Position numbers and translations under genes: made by a program. From a virus, in IMG/VR virus record IMGVR_UViG_3300042908_001020, positions 1-38,274 of that record: 38,274 nucleotides of DNA, one strand, 5' to 3'. The notes under the pieces are model-generated. The model saw only the letters and a program-made list of their open reading frames with translations, was not told where the DNA came from and did no database searches. Each line of letters opens with the position of its first letter. Position 1 is the first letter of the stretch. Of this stretch, positions 9,249-36,478 are shown in pieces.

Positions 9249-9449
9249 TTGCCAGATCATTGCCAGATGCGTCATTACGCGTGGTGAGAGCAATATTTTG
9301 GCCGGGGCGCAAAGTGGTAACTAATTGATTTTCATTGGGGTGGTGGGAGTGGGTTTATCCTGCCTCCGCCACCAACATTAACCGCATATTTGTGGTTTTC
9401 AATCAGTTACGAATTCTTTTGCGGGCCCGTTGCCAAATACATCTGGCAA
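9249..9449. other. attP region: arm-type repeats around a tRNA-3'-end core
   Basis: TTGCCAGAT occurs at 9249-9257 and 9260-9268 (11 bp apart) and inverted at 9441-9449, with TTGCCAAAT at 9430-9438. Between them, ATCCTGCCTCCGCCACCA (9357-9374) has the form of a tRNA 3' end: T-stem strand CCTGC, acceptor strand CTCCGCC, discriminator A, CCA. GTAACTAATTGA (9317-9328) and TCAATCAGTTAC (9399-9410) form a nearly perfect inverted repeat around the core. The arrangement matches lambda-type arm-core-arm attachment sites beside the integrase gene. Confidence 0.7.
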
Positions 9450-9454
9450 CGGGC
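9425..9454 (+). promoter_or_regulatory. Hairpin in the integrase leader
   Basis: GCCCGTTGCCA (9425-9435) pairs perfectly over 11 bp with TGGCAACGGGC (9444-9454). It lies 15 bases before the chosen integrase start. It contains the two P' arm-type repeats and might also reduce integrase translation. Confidence 0.6.
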
Positions 9455-9468
9455 TTTGCAAAAAAAAA

Positions 9469-10656
9469 ATGCCTGCCAACGTAACTACTTACAACCCGAT
9501 TTTGAAACGCGGAGAGCGCTGGTACATCGAGTACTACATCGAACTGAACGGCACACGCAAACGGATCCGCAGAAGCACGGCGGAGGATGGGCGTGACCTG
9601 AATCAGATCACCAGTGAAGCTGAGCGTATTGCCTTGGCTGAATCCATGATCAGAAGTATCAAGGAGAAGATCACGCCGGTAGAGATGAACCCGACAGCCA
9701 CGCTGTTTACTCAGGCGCTGGAGCTGGCTGTAGAGCTGAAGCGCTCCAACAAATTCAGAACCAACAAGACTTTTTCAGAAACCGCCCGGTGGATTACCGA
9801 GTACTTCCAGCGCAAAGGGTGGAGCACGCTCAGATGCAGCGATGTGAGCGTACAGCATATTCAGTCGTACTTTGATTATTGCATTACGAAGTTGAAGGTG
9901 CGCAACTCTACCTACAACACTCGCAAGAATAACCTGCGTTCGCTTATGGGTGAGCTGGTACAGCGCTCGTACTTCACAGAGAACTATGTGAGCAAGATCA
10001 AGAACCGCCCGGCGGCGGATCCGATACGCCGGTCGCTGTCGGAGAGTGAGTACTCGACGATCATGGGCTACTTTGCCGAGCACGACCGCACGATGCTGCT
10101 GGCCTGTGTGTTACTGGGAACACTGGCAATCAGACCCGGTGAGCTGCGCGACCTCAGATGCGGAGCGTTCGACTTCGAGCGTGGGGTGGTGCGCTTCGGA
10201 GCTGCCACCAGCAAGAACAACCGAAACAGTGTGATCACTATTCCGGACGATCTGGTGGAGCTGCTGCGCTCGTATAACCTGCACAAGCAGCCAGACAGTT
10301 ATTTTGTGTTCGGACGGGCAAAGGGCCGGCATAATTGCACGCTGGCACCTGCCGACAAGCCCATCGGGCTGAATACGCTGTACAATCGTTTCAAGGTGGC
10401 CATTGAACAGCTCAAGGCCGCCGGTCAGCTGGGAGATATTACAGGGATTCAGTTCTACAGCCTCAAGGATTCTCTGGCTATTTATCTGCTGGACTCCGGG
10501 GTAGATGTGGAGTCGGCCATGCGCCATTTCAGGCACAGAAATCTGGAAATGTTTCAGCGATATGCGAAGCGGCTGGGCTTTATTAACGAGCCAGTGAAAC
10601 GATTGCAGTTCAAGGGGCGTATTCCAGGGGTGGACAAAAAAAGCCCGGTCGAGTGA
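9469..10656 (+). CDS. int: Tyrosine recombinase integrase
   Basis: 395 aa from the ATG at 9469. An ATG at 9430 is in frame but falls inside the leader hairpin and adds a poorly conserved lead. There is an N-terminal AP2-like arm-binding segment (about 5-35), a SAM-like core-binding domain (about 85-190) and a catalytic domain. Visible catalytic positions are Arg in IRPGEL (about 222), Lys in TSKNN (about 249) and Tyr in MFQRYAKR (about 365). The usual HxLR is YSLK here, and the usual GH is RHR, a divergence common in Bacteroidetes integrases. The gene lies next to the candidate attP and its stop codon lies inside the terminator that follows. Confidence 0.93.
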   Translation: MPANVTTYNPILKRGERWYIEYYIELNGTRKRIRRSTAEDGRDLNQITSEAERIALAESMIRSIKEKITPVEMNPTATLFTQALELAVELKRSNKFRTNKTFSETARWITEYFQRKGWSTLRCSDVSVQHIQSYFDYCITKLKVRNSTYNTRKNNLRSLMGELVQRSYFTENYVSKIKNRPAADPIRRSLSESEYSTIMGYFAEHDRTMLLACVLLGTLAIRPGELRDLRCGAFDFERGVVRFGAATSKNNRNSVITIPDDLVELLRSYNLHKQPDSYFVFGRAKGRHNCTLAPADKPIGLNTLYNRFKVAIEQLKAAGQLGDITGIQFYSLKDSLAIYLLDSGVDVESAMRHFRHRNLEMFQRYAKRLGFINEPVKRLQFKGRIPGVDKKSPVE

Positions 10657-12081: not shown

Positions 12082-14898
12082 CTAATAGTAATTACCCGTA
12101 GCCGCATTGATATCTTTGAATCGCTTCTGCATATCCACGATTGTCCGATCTGGCAATACAGCCACCACGCCCGATTGCAGTACTGCCACCAGTGCCTCTA
12201 TAGCTGCTCCGGTGCGGGCTATGATAGCGGGGTCAAAAGCTGGTGCAGCTGAGGTGGGCGATACTGCGCCACCGTCGGCAAACTGACGTACACGACCGCC
12301 TGACTGGGTAAGGCTGTCTATCATGTGCACGTAGTTGGCTACGATTGGATTGGCCAGATCGTGAGCTGCGACAAAGTATTCCTGTCCGCGCTCGCTGGCA
12401 AGTACAGGGCCACCGGTGGCATTGCTTCTGAACAGCACCGGGCGATTTGGCAGTAATCCCGTACCCGGAGTATTGATCATGCTGGCATTATACGTGCGGC
12501 CATCGGATGCTCCTGTAACCATATAGCCGCCTTCGGCTTTCTGCTTTACTTCGGGGGCTGCTGTGAGTATTTTCTTTGCTTGTGCAATATTGGCGATGAT
12601 CCGGGCGAAGCCTGAAACATATTGCGCAATACCGGCAGCTCCAAAGGTTACAGCATTGGTTGGATTGGCATTGGATGCTGCCACCAACGATGATATGGCA
12701 GAAGCTGTATCGAATGCAATTTGAGCCAGTGTAGCGAGTTTCTGAAACTTGGCAGCTTTTTCGCCTTCGCCTCCTAAAAGCTCAAAACTGGCGGTAACGA
12801 AGTCGCCGAACGCGCTGAAAGAGGCCTGCAATGCCTGGAGCCTTACCTGCTGCGATTGTTGCTGATCTTGCAATGCCTGATCTGCATATTCCTTTTCAAG
12901 GGCCTTCAGCTCAATAGACTGTTGTTCTTTGATAGCCGATGTATCCAGACCATATTGCTCGGCCATTGCAAGCAGATGAGCATAGTGATTGTTCAACTGC
13001 TCGGTTTCCCACTCCTGATCAGAAATAAGTTGCAACCTGATCTGCTCTGCGGCAGCGGCCTGCTCTTCGTCAAAGTTCAGATTGATCAGTCGCTGCTGCT
13101 CCTTGGCATCAATCAGTGTATTCAGCTCCTGCTGCTGTTGTGCTGCGAACTCCTCCTGCTGCATCTGTCCAGATTCGGCAGCCAGCTGTCGTATTTTGAG
13201 TAATGAGTCTGAAGCAATAGCATATCGAGCTGCAAAAGCTTGCTGCTCTGCCTCTGCTGCTGCTCTGGCTTCTGCCTCCGGATCTGCTTTTTTGCCAGTG
13301 CCGCCAGAGCCACCTGTACCGCCAGTGCCACCAGTAGATGGTGGTGGCGGCGGTGGTGGTGTATCCAGTGCTTTACCGCGCAATCTGTCAAGTTCGGCAT
13401 TTGCGCCCTGGATAGTAGTTTGCAGCTCTTGTATCTTGTCCTGAAAACCCTTTATTTCTTCAGCATTTAGTTCACGCAATCGCGGAGCAATGCCAGGCGA
13501 AGCAGCTGTTTCAGTTTTGCCAAAGCTGAGCAGTTGCTGGTATCGTTTAAGCTCTGCTTCTGTTTGGGCTTTAACCTGCTCATATTCATCAATAGCCTGT
13601 TTATTAACCAACTGAAGCCTTGCCTTTTCAGCGACAATAAACTCGCGTGCTTTATCAGTATTCAGACCCAGTGCTCTGCCATACTCATCGAAGCCTTTAA
13701 TGGCAGTCGGAATAGTATCACCGACCTGCGTAATGATTTTCTTTAACTCGTCCTGTTCATCCTTCGTTAGTATCGTCTTGCCGGTCAGCTCGTCGTAGCG
13801 ATCAAGCAGGGGGGATATATTGCTTTCAAGTGAAGCGACTGACTCCTGTTGCTTGTCGAAGGCATCGGCAGCGGCTTCCGCCGGGTTGATCATGGCTGAA
13901 ATACCGTCTGTAATGCCTCCGATGACTTCGACTACACCACCGGCCAATGTGATCAGTTTCTCGAACACTGGCAGGAGGAGCACTGCGAGCTTTTCGGCAA
14001 TCTCGGCAATTTTCGCGGAGGCTTCGGCCTGCCTGCGAGCTGCGCTGTCTGTTTCTTTGGCGAACTGGGCCTGAGCATCTGTACTCTTGGCCAGTATCAG
14101 CTCGAGGGTAGTGGATGCCTTGGCCTGTTCCAGCGTTGCGCCGGTCAGCTTGTCGAGGCCCTTGGTGGCCAGTGCTGCCTGTACATCTGCCTCGGATATG
14201 GATATACCCAGCGACTTCAGTTCCTCCCGCTCACCAAGCAGTGCCTTGGTGAGTATCTCCGACACGCGGGTGCTATCCACTTGCCCGCCCGTCCACTCGG
14301 ACAGTGCGCCAGACAGGTTGATCAGCTGCGCACTGATATTGGCAGCCTCCTTGCGCTGGAAGCCCATAGGTACGAGCAAGTCCTGCGCTGCCGATGCAGC
14401 TGCCACATACTGCTGCGTGGTGAGGCCCATAGCCGTGGCATTCTTCTCTGCCTCCGCGGTGATCTGTGGCAATGCCTCCCCGAATACCGTGCGAGCTTTC
14501 TTGGCCAGCGACTCCATTTGCACACCGGTTTTGAACAGCTCGGTGCCTGCTGCTATAATACTGTCCACCGCGAATGCACCGGCGGCCAGCCCTACATATC
14601 CGCTCAGGCCATTCTTCAGGGCCATCCAGCCTTTACCCACACCATCCAGAGCCCCCTGGTGCTTGTTGATATTCTTGAGGCTGTCGTCCACACCACGCAG
14701 GGCGTTGTTGTGATCTTGCAGAACAGCCCGGTATTTCTTCACTTGCTCCAGCTGAGCAAGATATTCGTCACTGCCAATTACCATTTTGGCCAGGCGATTG
14801 TTCGCCTCGCTCAATGCAGCAGCAATACCCTTCACGCTGTTTACAGCCTGATCGGAGTTCACGAAGATGCTGACTTGCCTTGATGCTTGCTTAGCCAT
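12082..14898 (-). CDS. Tail tape measure protein
   Basis: 938 aa, the second largest gene. The N-terminal third (about 1-130) is helical. A TP901-type core follows (about 125-290), with hydrophobic helices (LAVLLLPVFEKLITLAGGVV) near 300-325. A Pro/Gly-rich linker (seven Pro, then TGGTGGTGGSGG) lies near 525-545, and a long Gln/Ala-rich coiled coil near 550-700. At about 0.15 nm per residue the length predicts a tail near 140 nm. It overlaps the upstream tail-completion gene by 8 bases, which couples their translation. Confidence 0.9.
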   Translation of the reverse strand: MAKQASRQVSIFVNSDQAVNSVKGIAAALSEANNRLAKMVIGSDEYLAQLEQVKKYRAVLQDHNNALRGVDDSLKNINKHQGALDGVGKGWMALKNGLSGYVGLAAGAFAVDSIIAAGTELFKTGVQMESLAKKARTVFGEALPQITAEAEKNATAMGLTTQQYVAAASAAQDLLVPMGFQRKEAANISAQLINLSGALSEWTGGQVDSTRVSEILTKALLGEREELKSLGISISEADVQAALATKGLDKLTGATLEQAKASTTLELILAKSTDAQAQFAKETDSAARRQAEASAKIAEIAEKLAVLLLPVFEKLITLAGGVVEVIGGITDGISAMINPAEAAADAFDKQQESVASLESNISPLLDRYDELTGKTILTKDEQDELKKIITQVGDTIPTAIKGFDEYGRALGLNTDKAREFIVAEKARLQLVNKQAIDEYEQVKAQTEAELKRYQQLLSFGKTETAASPGIAPRLRELNAEEIKGFQDKIQELQTTIQGANAELDRLRGKALDTPPPPPPPSTGGTGGTGGSGGTGKKADPEAEARAAAEAEQQAFAARYAIASDSLLKIRQLAAESGQMQQEEFAAQQQQELNTLIDAKEQQRLINLNFDEEQAAAAEQIRLQLISDQEWETEQLNNHYAHLLAMAEQYGLDTSAIKEQQSIELKALEKEYADQALQDQQQSQQVRLQALQASFSAFGDFVTASFELLGGEGEKAAKFQKLATLAQIAFDTASAISSLVAASNANPTNAVTFGAAGIAQYVSGFARIIANIAQAKKILTAAPEVKQKAEGGYMVTGASDGRTYNASMINTPGTGLLPNRPVLFRSNATGGPVLASERGQEYFVAAHDLANPIVANYVHMIDSLTQSGGRVRQFADGGAVSPTSAAPAFDPAIIARTGAAIEALVAVLQSGVVAVLPDRTIVDMQKRFKDINAATGNYY

Positions 14899-18746: not shown

Positions 18747-19712
18747 CTATTTCTTTGTTTGCCGGAGCAACTCCTGATACTCGTCTGCTTTCATGCTCAG
18801 ATAAGTGAGCACGTTTCCGTGTGGCTGATCTGCCACCTCATTGAGCGTGCCCATTGCGCCCTGCTCTGCCACCTTGAGCAGCACACCGCCCCAGCCGTAA
18901 TGACTGGTACTGCTGCCATCTCCGCCGCTTTTTTTGAACACCTTCGGATACTGGGCAGTAATCTGTGCCCTGCACGAAGCGAACCAGAACAAAATAATGC
19001 GCTTCGCCAGCAATGGCAGCTTTGCGCACAGCTGCTGGCGTTCTTCAATTCGGCTTTCATGCCCTCGCAGGGGCAGTCTCCGGTCACCATAAAACCCTGA
19101 ATCTTTGTTCTCATTAGTGATCGGTTTCTGCGGTCGGTACATCACCGCAATAATCCGGTCGGCTATCTTCTCATCGTTGGTGGCCACATACTGCTCGAAC
19201 AGCGCAAAGAGCATACCCAGCTCATATATCGTCACGTTGGCCAGCTCATCGGCTGGCGGGTACAGGTATTTCTTCTGAATATTGGGAGTGCGCTTCTTGC
19301 GATTGTACTTCACATCATTGTCGTACTGGATGCGGTCGTAAACATTCACTGTTCTGTTCAGCTTTACCGCATACGTTACGTTGCCCTCTTCATCATGCGT
19401 AATATCGAACAGCCCGGCCAGCATCTTGTGCACAATTTCACGCAGCTCTGCCAGAAATATCTGCTGGCCTATTTCAGGGCCATGCTGTTCCACCAGCAAA
19501 TATTCGTGGTTGCGCAGATTGTCGAGCGTAACACCGCACAATGTAGTGGCCATTTCGATCAGCTTCATGTTTGTGAAGCTGGTTTGGGAGAACTCGCTTT
19601 GTGTTGAACTGAAAATAGCACTGTAAAACAGCAGGCAATTGCGCTCATCGAGATCATTCCAGCTGTCTGGGGCTTGAATTTGCTGCCCATCTATGTAAAT
19701 TTCGGTTTGCAT
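18747..19712 (-). CDS. Probable tail/head assembly protein, function unknown
   Basis: 321 aa from the ATG at 19712 (MQTEIYIDGQQIQAPDSWND). The opening ('a ligand or quantity, then PxSWxDL') is typical of a Bacteroidota phage protein found near the tail chaperone position. The remainder is helical with a Cys-rich patch (FWFASCRAQITAQYPKVF) and GWGGVLLKVAEQGAMGTL near the end. It forms a single-gene transcription unit: own GTCCTTT box 33 nt upstream and own terminator downstream. It diverges from the + strand structural gene. Confidence 0.6.
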   Translation of the reverse strand: MQTEIYIDGQQIQAPDSWNDLDERNCLLFYSAIFSSTQSEFSQTSFTNMKLIEMATTLCGVTLDNLRNHEYLLVEQHGPEIGQQIFLAELREIVHKMLAGLFDITHDEEGNVTYAVKLNRTVNVYDRIQYDNDVKYNRKKRTPNIQKKYLYPPADELANVTIYELGMLFALFEQYVATNDEKIADRIIAVMYRPQKPITNENKDSGFYGDRRLPLRGHESRIEERQQLCAKLPLLAKRIILFWFASCRAQITAQYPKVFKKSGGDGSSTSHYGWGGVLLKVAEQGAMGTLNEVADQPHGNVLTYLSMKADEYQELLRQTKK

Positions 19713-19744
19713 GCTGCGAAAATGCCCCAAAAACGCCCCAAAAC

Positions 19745-21662: not shown

Positions 21663-21881
21663 TTAACCGACCCGGTTGTATGCCGGGAGCTCTGTCAGCT
21701 CCCTGGCAGCCATGCGTTCGGTGAGCGTGTATTGCGGGCGTGCCACGCTCACCGGAATACGGCCAACCAGGCGAATAATAATCAGCTTGGATTGGCCTTG
21801 GTGGCCATGAATATCCACGATTTCATAACGCCTGTTATTATCGCCTGCGAAGGAGAATTGTTGTCCGACTTCGTATATCAT
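21663..21881 (-). CDS. Small beta-rich protein coupled to the metacaspase
   Basis: 72 aa from the ATG at 21881, which overlaps the metacaspase stop (ATGA). The pattern YEVGQQFSFAGDNNRRYEIV and SKLIIIRLVGRIPV suggests a small SH3-like barrel. It is the last gene of the secreted-fibre operon. It could modulate or be a substrate of the protease; nothing in the sequence proves either. Confidence 0.55.
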   Translation of the reverse strand: MIYEVGQQFSFAGDNNRRYEIVDIHGHQGQSKLIIIRLVGRIPVSVARPQYTLTERMAARELTELPAYNRVG

Positions 21882-22606
21882 GTGAGGAATGGCTTGTTTT
21901 TGAATTGTCCGGCCTTGCTCGATTCGAGTTGAGGCACCTGCGAATAATCCCACCTGCGGATGACCAGTCGAACAGCATTCAGCAACTGGCTGTAAGTAGG
22001 AGTACCGAGCTGCAATATTTCCTCCACTGCCTGCGTGAATATCCCTCCAGCGTTGTTCTCGTAGCTGGGCTGCCAGATGTTACTGGAAGAGTACGATATA
22101 ATCGAGCAGGGCACACTGCGCAGTGAACCTTTGGTGGGTTTGATTACTGGCAGCTTTGGCAGCACGACAGATCGCTGACGGCCAAGGTTTATTTTGCTTG
22201 GCAGCCTGAAATTAGACTCAGAAAAACAGGTATCTGCCAGTCGGATGATCTTTGTTCCGGCCTTGAACTGTTTCCACATTGGAATCTGTTCATAATCCCA
22301 CAGGATATCGTCGTGGAGGCATAGTCCGGTGGCTCTGGTTCCGTCTTTCAGGTCGGTATAAGTACCATGGCCGGAGTGCGTATAGAACAGCGTATCGCCC
22401 GGCTTCATGGCTTCGGCCAGATTTCGGAATATGCCCTGCACCAGTTGCTTGGTACAGCGTTTATCCACCATGAGGTGGGGCTTCATATCGCGGCGGGAAG
22501 CGAGGTCGTACATCGCCTGAGCATCGCGCACACACTGTTGCAGGTTGCAATTGCCATACACAGCTGTGTCGTACTCGTTTATGCCAACGTGGAGAGAATA
22601 TATCAT
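21878..22606 (-). CDS. Caspase-like protease (metacaspase, peptidase C14)
   Basis: 242 aa. The p20-like order is clear: YSLHVGINEYD start, catalytic His80 in HSGHGT, and catalytic Cys127 in RLADTCFSES after a hydrophobic strand. ISYSSSNIWQPSYENNAGGIFT then matches the downstream loop that shapes the S1 pocket. Metacaspases cut after Arg or Lys and are usually calcium dependent. No extra domain, signal peptide or membrane segment is present. It lies directly after two secreted fibre-like genes and before a small beta protein, in a tail operon. Its role in the phage is unknown. Confidence 0.88.
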   Translation of the reverse strand: MIYSLHVGINEYDTAVYGNCNLQQCVRDAQAMYDLASRRDMKPHLMVDKRCTKQLVQGIFRNLAEAMKPGDTLFYTHSGHGTYTDLKDGTRATGLCLHDDILWDYEQIPMWKQFKAGTKIIRLADTCFSESNFRLPSKINLGRQRSVVLPKLPVIKPTKGSLRSVPCSIISYSSSNIWQPSYENNAGGIFTQAVEEILQLGTPTYSQLLNAVRLVIRRWDYSQVPQLESSKAGQFKNKPFLT

Positions 22607-32166: not shown

Positions 32167-33768
32167 TTACCCGGGCAGCGGTGCTCCCCAGCTTTGAGAA
32201 ATCTGATTGTACAGTACGAATATCGGATAGTCCAGGGCATCCGACAGGTCGGTGGCCAGCTCGCGCTGGCGATTGTCGGCGCGCTCGCTGCTCTTATCCT
32301 TCTTGATATCGCCCCTGTCGCCCTTGCGAACCTTCGCCCGCGACATGGATATAAACAGCTCCTTGGCGTTGTGAATGTTGATCCTGAATTTCGGAAGGCG
32401 CGGGTTCTTCTCGCTGAGAATGCGCTCCCAAAGTACATACTTCTCTGCATGACGCGGGTTGGTGCCTCCGAGGGTGAACGGCACCGGCTCCCAGCCATGC
32501 TTGACGAACTGCGCAATGGCCTGCTTGCCCCGGTTCAGCTTCGAGTTGCCAGTGTTCACGTTGCCTGAGGCATCGTGGTAAAACTCGATTCGCTTGCTGC
32601 CCTGCTGGTGGTGGTGGTAGTACGAATTGAACTTGTCTATCACATCATCCTGAATGTGGCCCTCCGAGCCTTTTACCCAGAAGTTTTTCAGAACGCGAAA
32701 TTCATTGGGCAGGCGCTGGCAAACCACCACAGAGTTGATAGCTGCCCCGAAGTCCATACCGATCACCAGCGGGTGACCGGGCACCAGATCGCTGTCGCCC
32801 CGGCAGTCGGGCATGATGCCGATCCGGTCGGGTGAATAGTGTGAATAGTTAAAATCCGTGTACGTGTGCTGATCCTTGTCGAGCAGCGCGTAAAAACCAC
32901 CTTTCAGCAACTTAGGGCGAATGTTCAGGTACTCGGCATTGAACACCTCCATATCCGAGCTTTCAGTGCGGGCCACTTCGAGGTAATCGGGCTTCAGGAT
33001 GCCCAGCTTGATATTCTCCACGCAGTTGGCGCGCAGGAACCGGTACTTGTCTGGCGACTCGATAGCCAGGTTTTCGCGCTCGATGAACCACGCCCCTGCC
33101 TCTGTGAGTGGCGTGCTGCTTTCCATAATCCGGAAGTCGAAAAAACGCTTGCGCCCCAGCTCGCGCATGTTGCTGCCCCGGATTGATGGCCCCGATTCTT
33201 CGTCGAGCTTTTGTTTGTTCAGCATTACGGCCTCCGATACAATGCGGCCATCGGTACTCAGACCCCGGCCCGAGCCAGATATATCCTGGCTGAGCAGTTG
33301 TATGCCGAAGCCATTCCAGAACACGATAAAGTTGTCGTACCTCGCTGGGGCCTTGTAAGGCTCCGGCCAGTTCCATTTTGACGGTGGCCGGCGACCAACG
33401 AAATAATGCAGATCCTTATACAGCCCCTGCATTTCAAGTCCATGTATGAAGGCCGGGATGATCTCCGTCAGGAACTTCTGATAGGTCGGTACTTCCCACT
33501 GAAACACCCCGCGCGGCATATCGTACAGTATGCGCCGCACCATCGCGGAGAGCAGCGTGGTTTTACCCGTGCCCCTGCTCCACTCCAGATCAATGTTTTT
33601 CACCGTGTGCAGGTTGTCGGCGATCATCAGGGCCATTCGCTGCGCAAAGTTGTAGTCAATGCGTTTGATGTTGCTGTCGTCCACCTGACTCAGCAGTTGC
33701 TGGTAGTTACCAGTGCTCCGGTCATGCAGGCGCATGATTTCAGATTTTATGAGGTCGTTGGTGTTCAT
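32167..33768 (-). CDS. terL: Terminase large subunit
   Basis: 533 aa. The ATPase has Walker A SRGTGKTT (about 63-70), a Walker B-like acidic segment and the coupling region; the nuclease domain contains VIGMDFGAAINSVVV (about 333) and later an Asp near FYHDASGN and at DLSDALDY. The enzyme pumps DNA into the procapsid and cuts it. Its ATG overlaps the small subunit's stop. A genome that assembles as a circle suggests headful packaging. Confidence 0.92.
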   Translation of the reverse strand: MNTNDLIKSEIMRLHDRSTGNYQQLLSQVDDSNIKRIDYNFAQRMALMIADNLHTVKNIDLEWSRGTGKTTLLSAMVRRILYDMPRGVFQWEVPTYQKFLTEIIPAFIHGLEMQGLYKDLHYFVGRRPPSKWNWPEPYKAPARYDNFIVFWNGFGIQLLSQDISGSGRGLSTDGRIVSEAVMLNKQKLDEESGPSIRGSNMRELGRKRFFDFRIMESSTPLTEAGAWFIERENLAIESPDKYRFLRANCVENIKLGILKPDYLEVARTESSDMEVFNAEYLNIRPKLLKGGFYALLDKDQHTYTDFNYSHYSPDRIGIMPDCRGDSDLVPGHPLVIGMDFGAAINSVVVCQRLPNEFRVLKNFWVKGSEGHIQDDVIDKFNSYYHHHQQGSKRIEFYHDASGNVNTGNSKLNRGKQAIAQFVKHGWEPVPFTLGGTNPRHAEKYVLWERILSEKNPRLPKFRINIHNAKELFISMSRAKVRKGDRGDIKKDKSSERADNRQRELATDLSDALDYPIFVLYNQISQSWGAPLPG

Positions 33769-34444: not shown

Positions 34445-34819
34445 CTATAACATTTTGTTTTGGATGATACCCAGTTTCAACTCCATTTGTTTGCGAAGTT
34501 CATTGAGCTGGGAGGTAGCCTGCTGAATCTGGTGCAGCGTGGGTAATGCAGTAGGTTTGCCTTGCGGGGGGAAAGCCTGTATGCCATGCTCTCTTATATA
34601 CAGGCTGTTGTAATGCTTCATGGCTCTGTAGGCCATTTGAACATTGCACTGGCAGGCAACAGCGAGGTGATTGATTGCCTCATCGTGGGTGTAGCTGAAA
34701 TTCTGCCTGAACAGCTCCAGCATATTCAGGCGTTCAGCATAAGGCTTTACGGAGAACTCTGTAAGGTGTGAATTGTCTGGCGACAACCATTCGAGCTTAA
34801 GTTCAGGTGATGTTGTCAT
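34445..34819 (-). CDS. Hypothetical protein before the terminase genes
   Basis: 124 aa. Helical, with DEAINHLAVACQCNVQMAYR resembling an HTH-like segment, then a Gln-rich C-terminal coiled coil (LHQIQQATSQLNELRKQMEL). It overlaps the preceding frame by 17 bases and lies 2 bases before terS. It could assist DNA recognition in packaging. No family recognised. Confidence 0.6.
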   Translation of the reverse strand: MTTSPELKLEWLSPDNSHLTEFSVKPYAERLNMLELFRQNFSYTHDEAINHLAVACQCNVQMAYRAMKHYNSLYIREHGIQAFPPQGKPTALPTLHQIQQATSQLNELRKQMELKLGIIQNKML

Positions 34820-35156
34820 ATTCGGCTTGTTTCAGTGTCAGTTGTTTCTCCAGATCAGCGAGGCGCTTCCCGCGAGCTGTTTTCATCTCTTTCTTGATCT
34901 GGCTGATACGCACCCGGATGGACATGATTTTCCGGGCGTGCTTTTCGTCCAGCTCGGCAGGCGACATCCACTCTTCCTGCCTGAGTCGGGCGTATTCAGC
35001 ATCGAGCGCAGGTATTATTTTCGTGAGGATGGTATGCGCTACCTCTGCCCTGGCTTCCTGCGTGGGCGCGATGGTCAGCAGCGTGTGGAAGTAGGCATGT
35101 TCCTTGTGGAGCTTCCTTGCCGCCTCGCTGCTGATTACCGGAACCAGCTCAATTTC
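34803..35156 (-). CDS. C-terminal extension reached by -1 frameshift (no start codon of its own)
   Basis: 117 codons in the -1 frame relative to 35135-35488, beginning EIELVPVISSEAARKLHKEH and ending QLTLKQAEYDNIT. It is charged and helical with a likely coiled coil. A stop (TGA) lies only 14 bases before the slippery site in this frame, and no ATG, GTG or TTG occurs before an internal ATG at its 64th codon (34967), so separate initiation of the whole frame is unlikely. Fused product: 111 + 117 = 228 aa. The extension then overlaps the next gene by 17 bases. Confidence 0.75.
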   Translation of the reverse strand, partial: EIELVPVISSEAARKLHKEHAYFHTLLTIAPTQEARAEVAHTILTKIIPALDAEYARLRQEEWMSPAELDEKHARKIMSIRVRISQIKKEMKTARGKRLADLEKQLTLKQAEYDNIT

Positions 35157-35162
35157 TTTTTT
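35130..35162 (-). promoter_or_regulatory. Programmed -1 frameshift site: slippery A AAA AAG plus hairpin
   Basis: Minus-strand heptamer A AAA AAG (35162-35156, part of an A9G run) is in the right frame for -1 slippage. After a 7-base spacer, GCTGGTT (35148-35142) pairs with AATCAGC (35136-35130) around the loop CCGGT, 7 pairs with one G-U. The zero-frame stop lies within the hairpin. Site and spacing match known -1 frameshift elements such as dnaX. Confidence 0.75.
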
Positions 35163-35488
35163 TTTGCCGGGGCTTCATTGGCAGCAAGAACTGGAGTGCC
35201 ATGATCTGGTGAAACAACCTTCCCGGATTCAAACCCGGGCGGAAGATCTGTTTCATCTGGACCAGTCTCAGGTATTCCATCTGGCGGAACAACCGGATCA
35301 GGTTCCACTTCTTCTTGCGGTTTAGCGTTGTGCTTGTTCAGCTCGTATTGCAGCTTGCCTGCCAGATAGTTGTCAAGCTCGCCACCGCCAGCAATAGCCT
35401 GTTTAATCCGATCCACTATATTTTTGGTGAGCGAATGACCTGCTTTTTCGAGGGTTACCAGTGCTGCCCATGCCTGTTCTGCGTTCAT
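35135..35488 (-). CDS. Zero-frame product of the frameshift gene
   Basis: 117 aa. N-terminal helical domain (about 1-55, AWAALVTLEKAGHSLTKNIV, then LAGKLQYELNKHN), then a Pro/Asp/Glu-rich linker (about 58-105), ending AKKKKLSWFR. In unshifted translation the protein stops 5 codons after the slippery AAG. The shifted protein (228 aa) adds a coiled coil. A short and long form sharing a start recalls tail-assembly chaperones, but this location, between capsid and terminase units, is not the usual one. Confidence 0.65.
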   Translation of the reverse strand: MNAEQAWAALVTLEKAGHSLTKNIVDRIKQAIAGGGELDNYLAGKLQYELNKHNAKPQEEVEPDPVVPPDGIPETGPDETDLPPGFESGKVVSPDHGTPVLAANEAPAKKKKLSWFR

Positions 35489-35634: not shown

Positions 35635-35670
35635 AAAAAAAGGCCGCCCTGCCTGCGCGGCAGAACGGCC
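35635..35670 (-). terminator. Terminator after the capsid operon
   Basis: On the minus strand GGCCG, two G-U pairs, CTGCC, loop, GGCAG, CGGCC, then seven T. It is 26 bases after the stop at 35696. Confidence 0.9.
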
Positions 35671-35932: not shown

Positions 35933-36478
35933 TTACGTGTTAGGCGTAGTGTCTATGGTTCCACCGTACACCATTGGGCGGGCAGTGTATGCCACTACCG
36001 TCACCTGAATTGTGCGGCTGCCCTCCGGGCCTTCGCCAGTGCCACCGGTGGCGGTATCCACGTAGGCGGCCTCGTCCTTATGGCCCACCGTATGTATAAC
36101 GCTGTTCTTGTCAGGAATCAGGAACGCAGACGGGATATTCAACATGCGGGTGCAGAATTCCAGTTGCTCCGCATTCACGCCCTGAATCGTGAACGTGAAT
36201 GTTTCCTTCCACTGCTTGCTGCCCTTGTCGCCAACGGCCTCGAGCTGGTAAGAGCCTGTGTCTATCAGGATCGGGAAACTGCGCCAGTATCCTTTGCCTG
36301 ATCCTGCTCCGGTAAAGTCGTAGTTGCCGGTGGTTTTCACAAAATCGCCTTCGGCAGTGCCGGTGCTCCATCCTGGTTCAGCAGTGATCTCTGCCACCGG
36401 AACGATGTACATGGTAGTTTTTATGCCCGGCGGATTGGAAGCACAGGGCACGGCTGTCAAATTGCTTATTACGCACAT
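35933..36478 (-). CDS. Putative major tail tube protein
   Basis: 181 aa from the ATG at 36478. The start (Cys, PPGIKTTMYIVPVAEI), the central RSFPILIDTGSYQLEAVGDK and the helix NAEQLEFCTRMLNIPSAFLI, then beta strands with GEGPEGSRTIQVTVVAYTAR, follow the pattern of abundant tail-tube-type proteins in Bacteroidota phages. It comes directly after the major capsid gene. The product of 461-946 shares the N-terminal pattern. Confidence 0.6.
   Translation of the reverse strand: MCVISNLTAVPCASNPPGIKTTMYIVPVAEITAEPGWSTGTAEGDFVKTTGNYDFTGAGSGKGYWRSFPILIDTGSYQLEAVGDKGSKQWKETFTFTIQGVNAEQLEFCTRMLNIPSAFLIPDKNSVIHTVGHKDEAAYVDTATGGTGEGPEGSRTIQVTVVAYTARPMVYGGTIDTTPNT

Follow-up and report, generated by a model that had tools for sequence, protein, structure and literature searches.

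A frame break at a poly-A tract in a conserved, unnamed phage gene, most likely bridged by slippage

Gene X and its surroundings

The window analysed here is the whole 38,274-nucleotide stretch of an IMG/VR virus record. Its ends repeat for 127 bp, which suggests that the genome is probably a closed circle of about 38 kb. On the minus strand lies a gene, called X here, that is split between two reading frames (Table 1). The zero-frame ORF starts with ATG at 35488 and stops with TAA at 35137-35135. Its end reads GCA AAA AAA AAG AAA TTG AGC TGG TTC CGG TAA, with the stop 6 codons past the heptamer A_AAA_AAG, and the short product ends in KLSWFR. The -1 frame spans 123 codons from stop to stop, of which 117 follow the A-run, the number given in a preliminary description of this DNA. 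That description had placed the preceding -1 stop 14 bases upstream of the heptamer; the measured distance from the end of that stop is 12 nt, and the other coordinates were right. A start-codon scan of the -1 frame in the window found no ATG, GTG or TTG before ATG 34967, which is codon 70 from the upstream -1 stop and about the 64th after the heptamer, confirming that the second half has no conventional start before that point. Fusion of the two frames gives a product of 228 aa, as previously stated, with EAPAKKKEIELVPV at the junction.

Table 1. Features of the X locus in the window
Feature	Coordinates	Strand	Remarks
Gene X, zero-frame part, 117 aa	35135..35488	-	N-terminal helical domain and linker; short product
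Gene X, -1 frame part	34803..35174	-	C-terminal helical module; TGA 34805-34803
Slippage site A9G	35156..35165	-	holds A_AAA_AAG (35162-35156) and A_AAA_AAA (35165-35159), zero-frame phase
Hairpin, 7-bp stem and 5-nt loop	35130..35148	-	7 nt after heptamer; contains zero-frame TAA
Downstream gene, 124 aa	34445..34819	-	ATG overlaps -1 end of X by 17 nt (34819 to 34803)
Small-terminase-like gene, 225 aa	33765..34442	-	weak HTH similarity below Pfam cut-off; position kept in relatives
Large terminase	32167..33768	-	phrog_2, E 1e-11
Intrinsic-terminator-like site before X	35642..35670	-	strong: 12-pair stem, T7
Candidate tail tube gene	35933..36478	-	upstream across terminator; AlphaFold pLDDT 87
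Small gene	35929-35696	-	after tail-tube-like gene

The A9 run occupies 35165-35157 and is followed by G at 35156, so that AAAAAAG lies in the X_XXY_YYZ phase, exactly where it had been reported. No A-run on the coding strand of the 38 kb is longer, and no other reaches nine; A7-A8 runs in other genes of the window leave those ORFs open. The window was scanned for 18 types of in-phase heptamer with a -1 frame of more than 100 codons past the zero-frame stop, and the A_AAA_AAG in X was the only match within a likely real gene. The scan's other match is an out-of-frame ORF lying within the tape-measure gene. On the plus strand an A10 run at 9460-9469 closely follows the TTG with which the integrase ORF (9430-10656) opens. 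Translation of the integrase may really begin at the ATG past this run, or the run may affect integrase expression.

A hairpin with a 7-base spacer had also been described after the heptamer. It is present in the window, but its base pairs break in the close relative L002, where a different 7-bp stem can be drawn at equal spacing. The region after the heptamer folds no better than shuffled sequences in either genome (z +0.5/+0.6 and -0.5/-0.6), and what stands of the hairpin is thus its presence, not its pairwise conservation or a stability above shuffles. No Shine-Dalgarno-like stimulator upstream of the heptamer was evident by eye.

In 31 of 58 loci a terminator-like site precedes X by no more than 300 nt, where shuffles predict 0.1. 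X thus often heads a unit of its own that continues into the terminase genes, and in the window it probably begins the packaging unit. At the other end of X, the overlap of its -1 end with the ATG of the downstream gene means that shifted ribosomes would reach that start; zero-frame ribosomes would stop some 315 nt before it. Short overlaps of this kind between ATG and stop are common at the X end in relatives. Across the terminator, the predicted fold of the 36478-35933 product mostly matches tail tube and Hcp proteins in the PDB (E 0.01-0.2, low TM), and this product is tentatively regarded as probably a tail tube protein. X follows the tail-tube-like gene in most loci. The locus order in the relatives examined in detail includes protease and major capsid, and later the tail-tube-like gene, X, the small-terminase-like gene or genes and the large terminase; the position of X in the window between the tail-tube-like gene and the terminase genes fits the X family. 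In several relatives (L008:5970-6545, L012:5620-6240 and L013:4058-4666) a phospholipase-D/polyphosphate-kinase-like gene, annotated or assigned by resemblance, lies between X and the terminase genes, and it is absent from the window. Elsewhere in the window, a 242-aa ORF among the tail genes (21878-22606, minus strand) carries HSGHG and DTCFS motifs, which we take to be like those of caspase-type (C14) peptidases; it has no Pfam match at E 0.001.

One protein in two frames

Codon usage was scored as log-odds, with twelve other ORFs of the window as the training set. Upstream of the A-run, frame 0 scored +22 and frame -1 scored -76; downstream of it, the scores were -62 and +31, respectively. 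The coding frame switches from 0 to -1 at the A-run.

The fused protein at first seemed to be an orphan. Scans of genome contigs found no relative, and a whole-protein profile built from distant relatives only missed it. Weak tblastn matches of the fusion in human-gut phage records (H1-H3) were set aside as chance matches to ClpB coiled coils. Relatives were reached through the large terminase, which matches Polaribacter phage Leef_1, Microcystis phages Mea/Mae-Yong924 and about 80 uncultured contigs, as well as Flavobacterium and Cellulophaga phages of Duneviridae. With nearer relatives found in this way, a profile of nine single-ORF X proteins matches the -1 segment of the window over columns 93-211 of 217 with an E-value of 4.4e-15, and that of L002 with 4.9e-15. 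A profile of three X N-termini (L016, L017 and L026) matches the zero-frame ORF of the window at E 2.4e-5, the next match among 710 ORFs being at 0.93. Both halves match X profiles in order, which makes the two frames the N- and C-terminal coding parts of a single protein. The preliminary reading that the coding frame does change to -1 at a slippery A-tract, with both frames coding, is thereby supported by codon usage and homology alike.

Iteration brought the X family to 72 ORFs, which form 64 clusters at 90% identity. In 65 loci, from about 60 lineages including Leef_1 and Duneviridae, X is a single full-length ORF; the loci that lack one are three contig ends, L026/L087, and the window together with L002. 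This makes the frame break a derived trait of one lineage. The slippage site is absent from the 65 other loci, and long A-runs are not enriched in the family: they occur in 10 of 53 genes, where synonymous shuffling yields 13.2. In L026 (4909-5367) and L087, X ends inside the C-terminal module (column 144 of 213) and lacks the last hairpin, and the next gene directly overlaps the shortened X. In L019 (4805-5443), X has an in-frame A9 of its own in the linker, at codon 68; a slip there would cut the product short, the reverse of the case in the window. The family has no name in Pfam or NCBIfam and no shared PHROG, in line with the earlier remark that the products fit no family, yet X is a conserved phage family: widespread, unannotated and heading the packaging unit in Bacteroidota-type phages. 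Gene callers will split X of the window and thereby hide its family.

The structure of the X protein of L017 was modelled with AlphaFold using 53 family members (mean pLDDT 86). The model has an N-terminal helical domain at residues 1-59, a linker of lower confidence at 60-95, and two helical hairpins at 99-150 and 173-222. By alignment to this model, the A-run of the window falls in the linker between the helical modules. The predicted fold found no convincing match in the PDB or BFVD.

The close relative L002 (IMGVR_UViG_3300034072_001373) is about 94.7% identical to the window over most of the compared genome. At the A-run position it has CGACAAAAAAAAAGAAGTAGAGCTG, with A9G and phase identical to the window; bases have changed on either side of the run, and the ten bases of A9G are unchanged. 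Its zero-frame stop comes 1 codon after the heptamer, so that the zero-frame tail after the site is K rather than KLSWFR, and its -1 frame is intact. When the first 30 nt after the run are left out, the -1 parts of the two genomes differ by 5 synonymous and 1 non-synonymous codon changes. The NG86 dN/dS is 0.06 for this stretch; it is 0.21 when the -1 part is taken whole and 0.38 in the N-terminal part. Neither genome, at about 5% divergence, has accumulated a stop or indel in the -1 part. The -1 part of X is under purifying selection, the strongest signal coming from six substitutions. A start of its own for the second half, which the preliminary description had raised for relatives, receives weak support from L002, where TTG and GTG occur just after the A-run; the window has neither. 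The second half might use an unusual start such as ATT, CTG or ATC, or TTG/GTG in L002. The frame split is known from these two genomes and counts as one event, common by descent; peptide and DNA scans for further members found only L002, in collections that may omit very near records.

Proposed origin and bridging of the frame break

X is a conserved phage gene without a name, and the change of frame within it is genuine and under selection. Slippage at A9G most likely bridges the two frames, a type of recoding already known from elsewhere but new for this gene and lineage. The data are probably best explained by an ancestral full-length X that was split by an indel in the A-tract and is still made through slippage at A9G. 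X would be a modular protein in which a flexible linker joins a small helical domain at the N-terminus to two helical hairpins at the C-terminus. In the common ancestor of this phage and L002, the linker A-tract would have changed in length by a number not divisible by three, moving the C-terminal module into the -1 frame. A fraction of expression would slip at A9G to give full-length X, either through a -1 slip of tRNA-Lys on A_AAA_AAG or through RNA polymerase adding one A (A9 to A10), and unslipped expression would end a few codons on as an N-domain-plus-linker product. Through the overlap with the next gene, slippage probably also contributes to the translation of the terminase unit. The fused product is the ancestral protein and the short one the novelty. 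Relatives keep full-length X, suggesting that it is very likely needed. That slippage occurs, its kind and any role of the short form are what we infer from sequence comparison.

Two kinds of slippage fit the site. As in programmed -1 frameshifting, the heptamer is in phase and the -1 frame is coding past the zero-frame stop; A_AAA_AAG is among the three best X_XXZ_ZZN motifs with stimulators (PMC4066793). X also has at least nine A on the coding strand, the threshold for transcriptional slippage taken from PMC1088944 and PMC5009743, and one inserted A restores the frame. RNA polymerase slips efficiently on runs of nine A (PMC5009743; see also PMC1088944). The lack of a conserved stimulator and the full A9 slightly favour polymerase slippage over ribosomal slippage.

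The nearest precedent for X is tssM1 of Citrobacter rodentium, which is interrupted after A11 and rescued by polymerase slippage, both forms being needed (PMC4256274). Like tssM1, X is one ORF in relatives and is broken after a poly-A run. In tssM1, slippage gives back the complete protein alongside a truncated form that lacks the C-terminal domain, as proposed for X. In contrast to tssM1, X has A9 rather than A11, is an unnamed phage gene, and its slippage is proposed from sequence. In Shigella spa13/spa32, transcriptional slippage is tied to expression of the next gene (PMC5009743). There too the slipped frame yields an additional C-terminal part, about 110 aa long, whose end overlaps the start of the next gene, but the gene and system are different, and for X it is the overlap that points to such coupling. 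The dnaX gene uses ribosomal -1 slippage at A_AAA_AAG in E. coli and polymerase slippage at nine A in Thermus thermophilus. X combines the heptamer of the former with the run length of the latter, leaving two candidate mechanisms. Slippage gives the shorter form in dnaX and, as proposed, the full-length form in X.

The preliminary description had classed X as a programmed -1 frameshift gene. The frame transition stands; programming as a feature of the gene is not supported, and there is no family-wide signal of it, given the 65 single-ORF loci, the unenriched A-runs and the unconserved hairpin. A design in which short and long X are needed in a set ratio, like lambda gpG/gpGT or TssM1, would refine the reading of a split ancestral gene by adding a function for the short form. 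It accords with the in-phase A_AAA_AAG, the zero-frame stop close by in both genomes, the break between modules and the overlap with the next gene. The absence of the split from every other family member speaks against it, as do the hairpin and the zero-frame tail (KLSWFR or K), neither of which is conserved, and the lack of A-run enrichment in X of other phages argues against an old design of this type. Such a two-product gene is thus rather unlikely, and slippage that corrects an old indel accounts for the data no less well. It is slightly more doubtful still that a single-product X has turned into a two-product gene in which slippage at A9G would set both the ratio of N-domain to full-length protein and, through the overlap, the terminase output. 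X offers a clear case, in one lineage, of a poly-A frame break tolerated by selection, and a test case for the origin of programmed frameshifting from a corrected indel to a two-product gene.

X might instead have been broken by a recent frameshift mutation, with its C-terminal half dead or internally started and the full-length protein dispensable. The single intact ORF of relatives, the confinement of the split to one lineage, the natural loss of the last part of X in L026/L087 and the TTG and GTG of L002 would all suit such a history. This is improbable when 5 of the 6 codon changes beyond the junction in the -1 part are synonymous, two genomes about 5% apart have gained no stop or indel, and the window has no conventional start before 34967. 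Phase variation, by which changes of A-tract length in replication would mix intact and truncated X in the population, is less probable again. A nine-base homopolymer is a classic mutable tract in which a one-base change restores the ORF, and poly-A/T tracts have been discussed in this role (PMC3711429). However, both assembled genomes carry A9, the off state, and a conserved gene beside the terminase genes is an unlikely switch. A sequencing or assembly error would be natural in an error-prone homopolymer known from assemblies, but it is very improbable, as L002, a separate contig with about 5% of its sites changed and with substitutions flanking the run, has A9 too, and other A7-A8 runs in genes stay in frame. 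The run is not an obvious sequence error.

Tail assembly chaperones

Since X follows the probable tail tube gene, it was also considered as a tail assembly chaperone. Like gpG/gpGT, X is a phage gene with a -1 shift. The short form of gpG/gpGT-type proteins has about 120-140 aa and the long form about twice that, and the two sizes of X resemble these. Unlike gpG/gpGT, X lies behind a terminator at the head of a terminase unit, and its relatives carry one ORF. No significant similarity to chaperones was found when 53 X members were compared with PHROGs, Pfam and NCBIfam, the best PHROG chaperone match having an E-value of 0.02 in 1 of the 53. Genes of the G/GT type immediately precede the tape measure gene within the tail unit; in the window the tape-measure-like gene lies at 12082-14898, far from X at 35488-34803. 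The chaperone reading was dropped because of the terminator, this distance and the absent similarity. Near the portal gene, a 327-aa ORF (18747-19730, minus strand) begins with IYIDGQQIQAPDSWNDLDERNCLLFYSA, which we take to resemble the starts of tail assembly chaperones, and it is perhaps a better candidate for that role than X.
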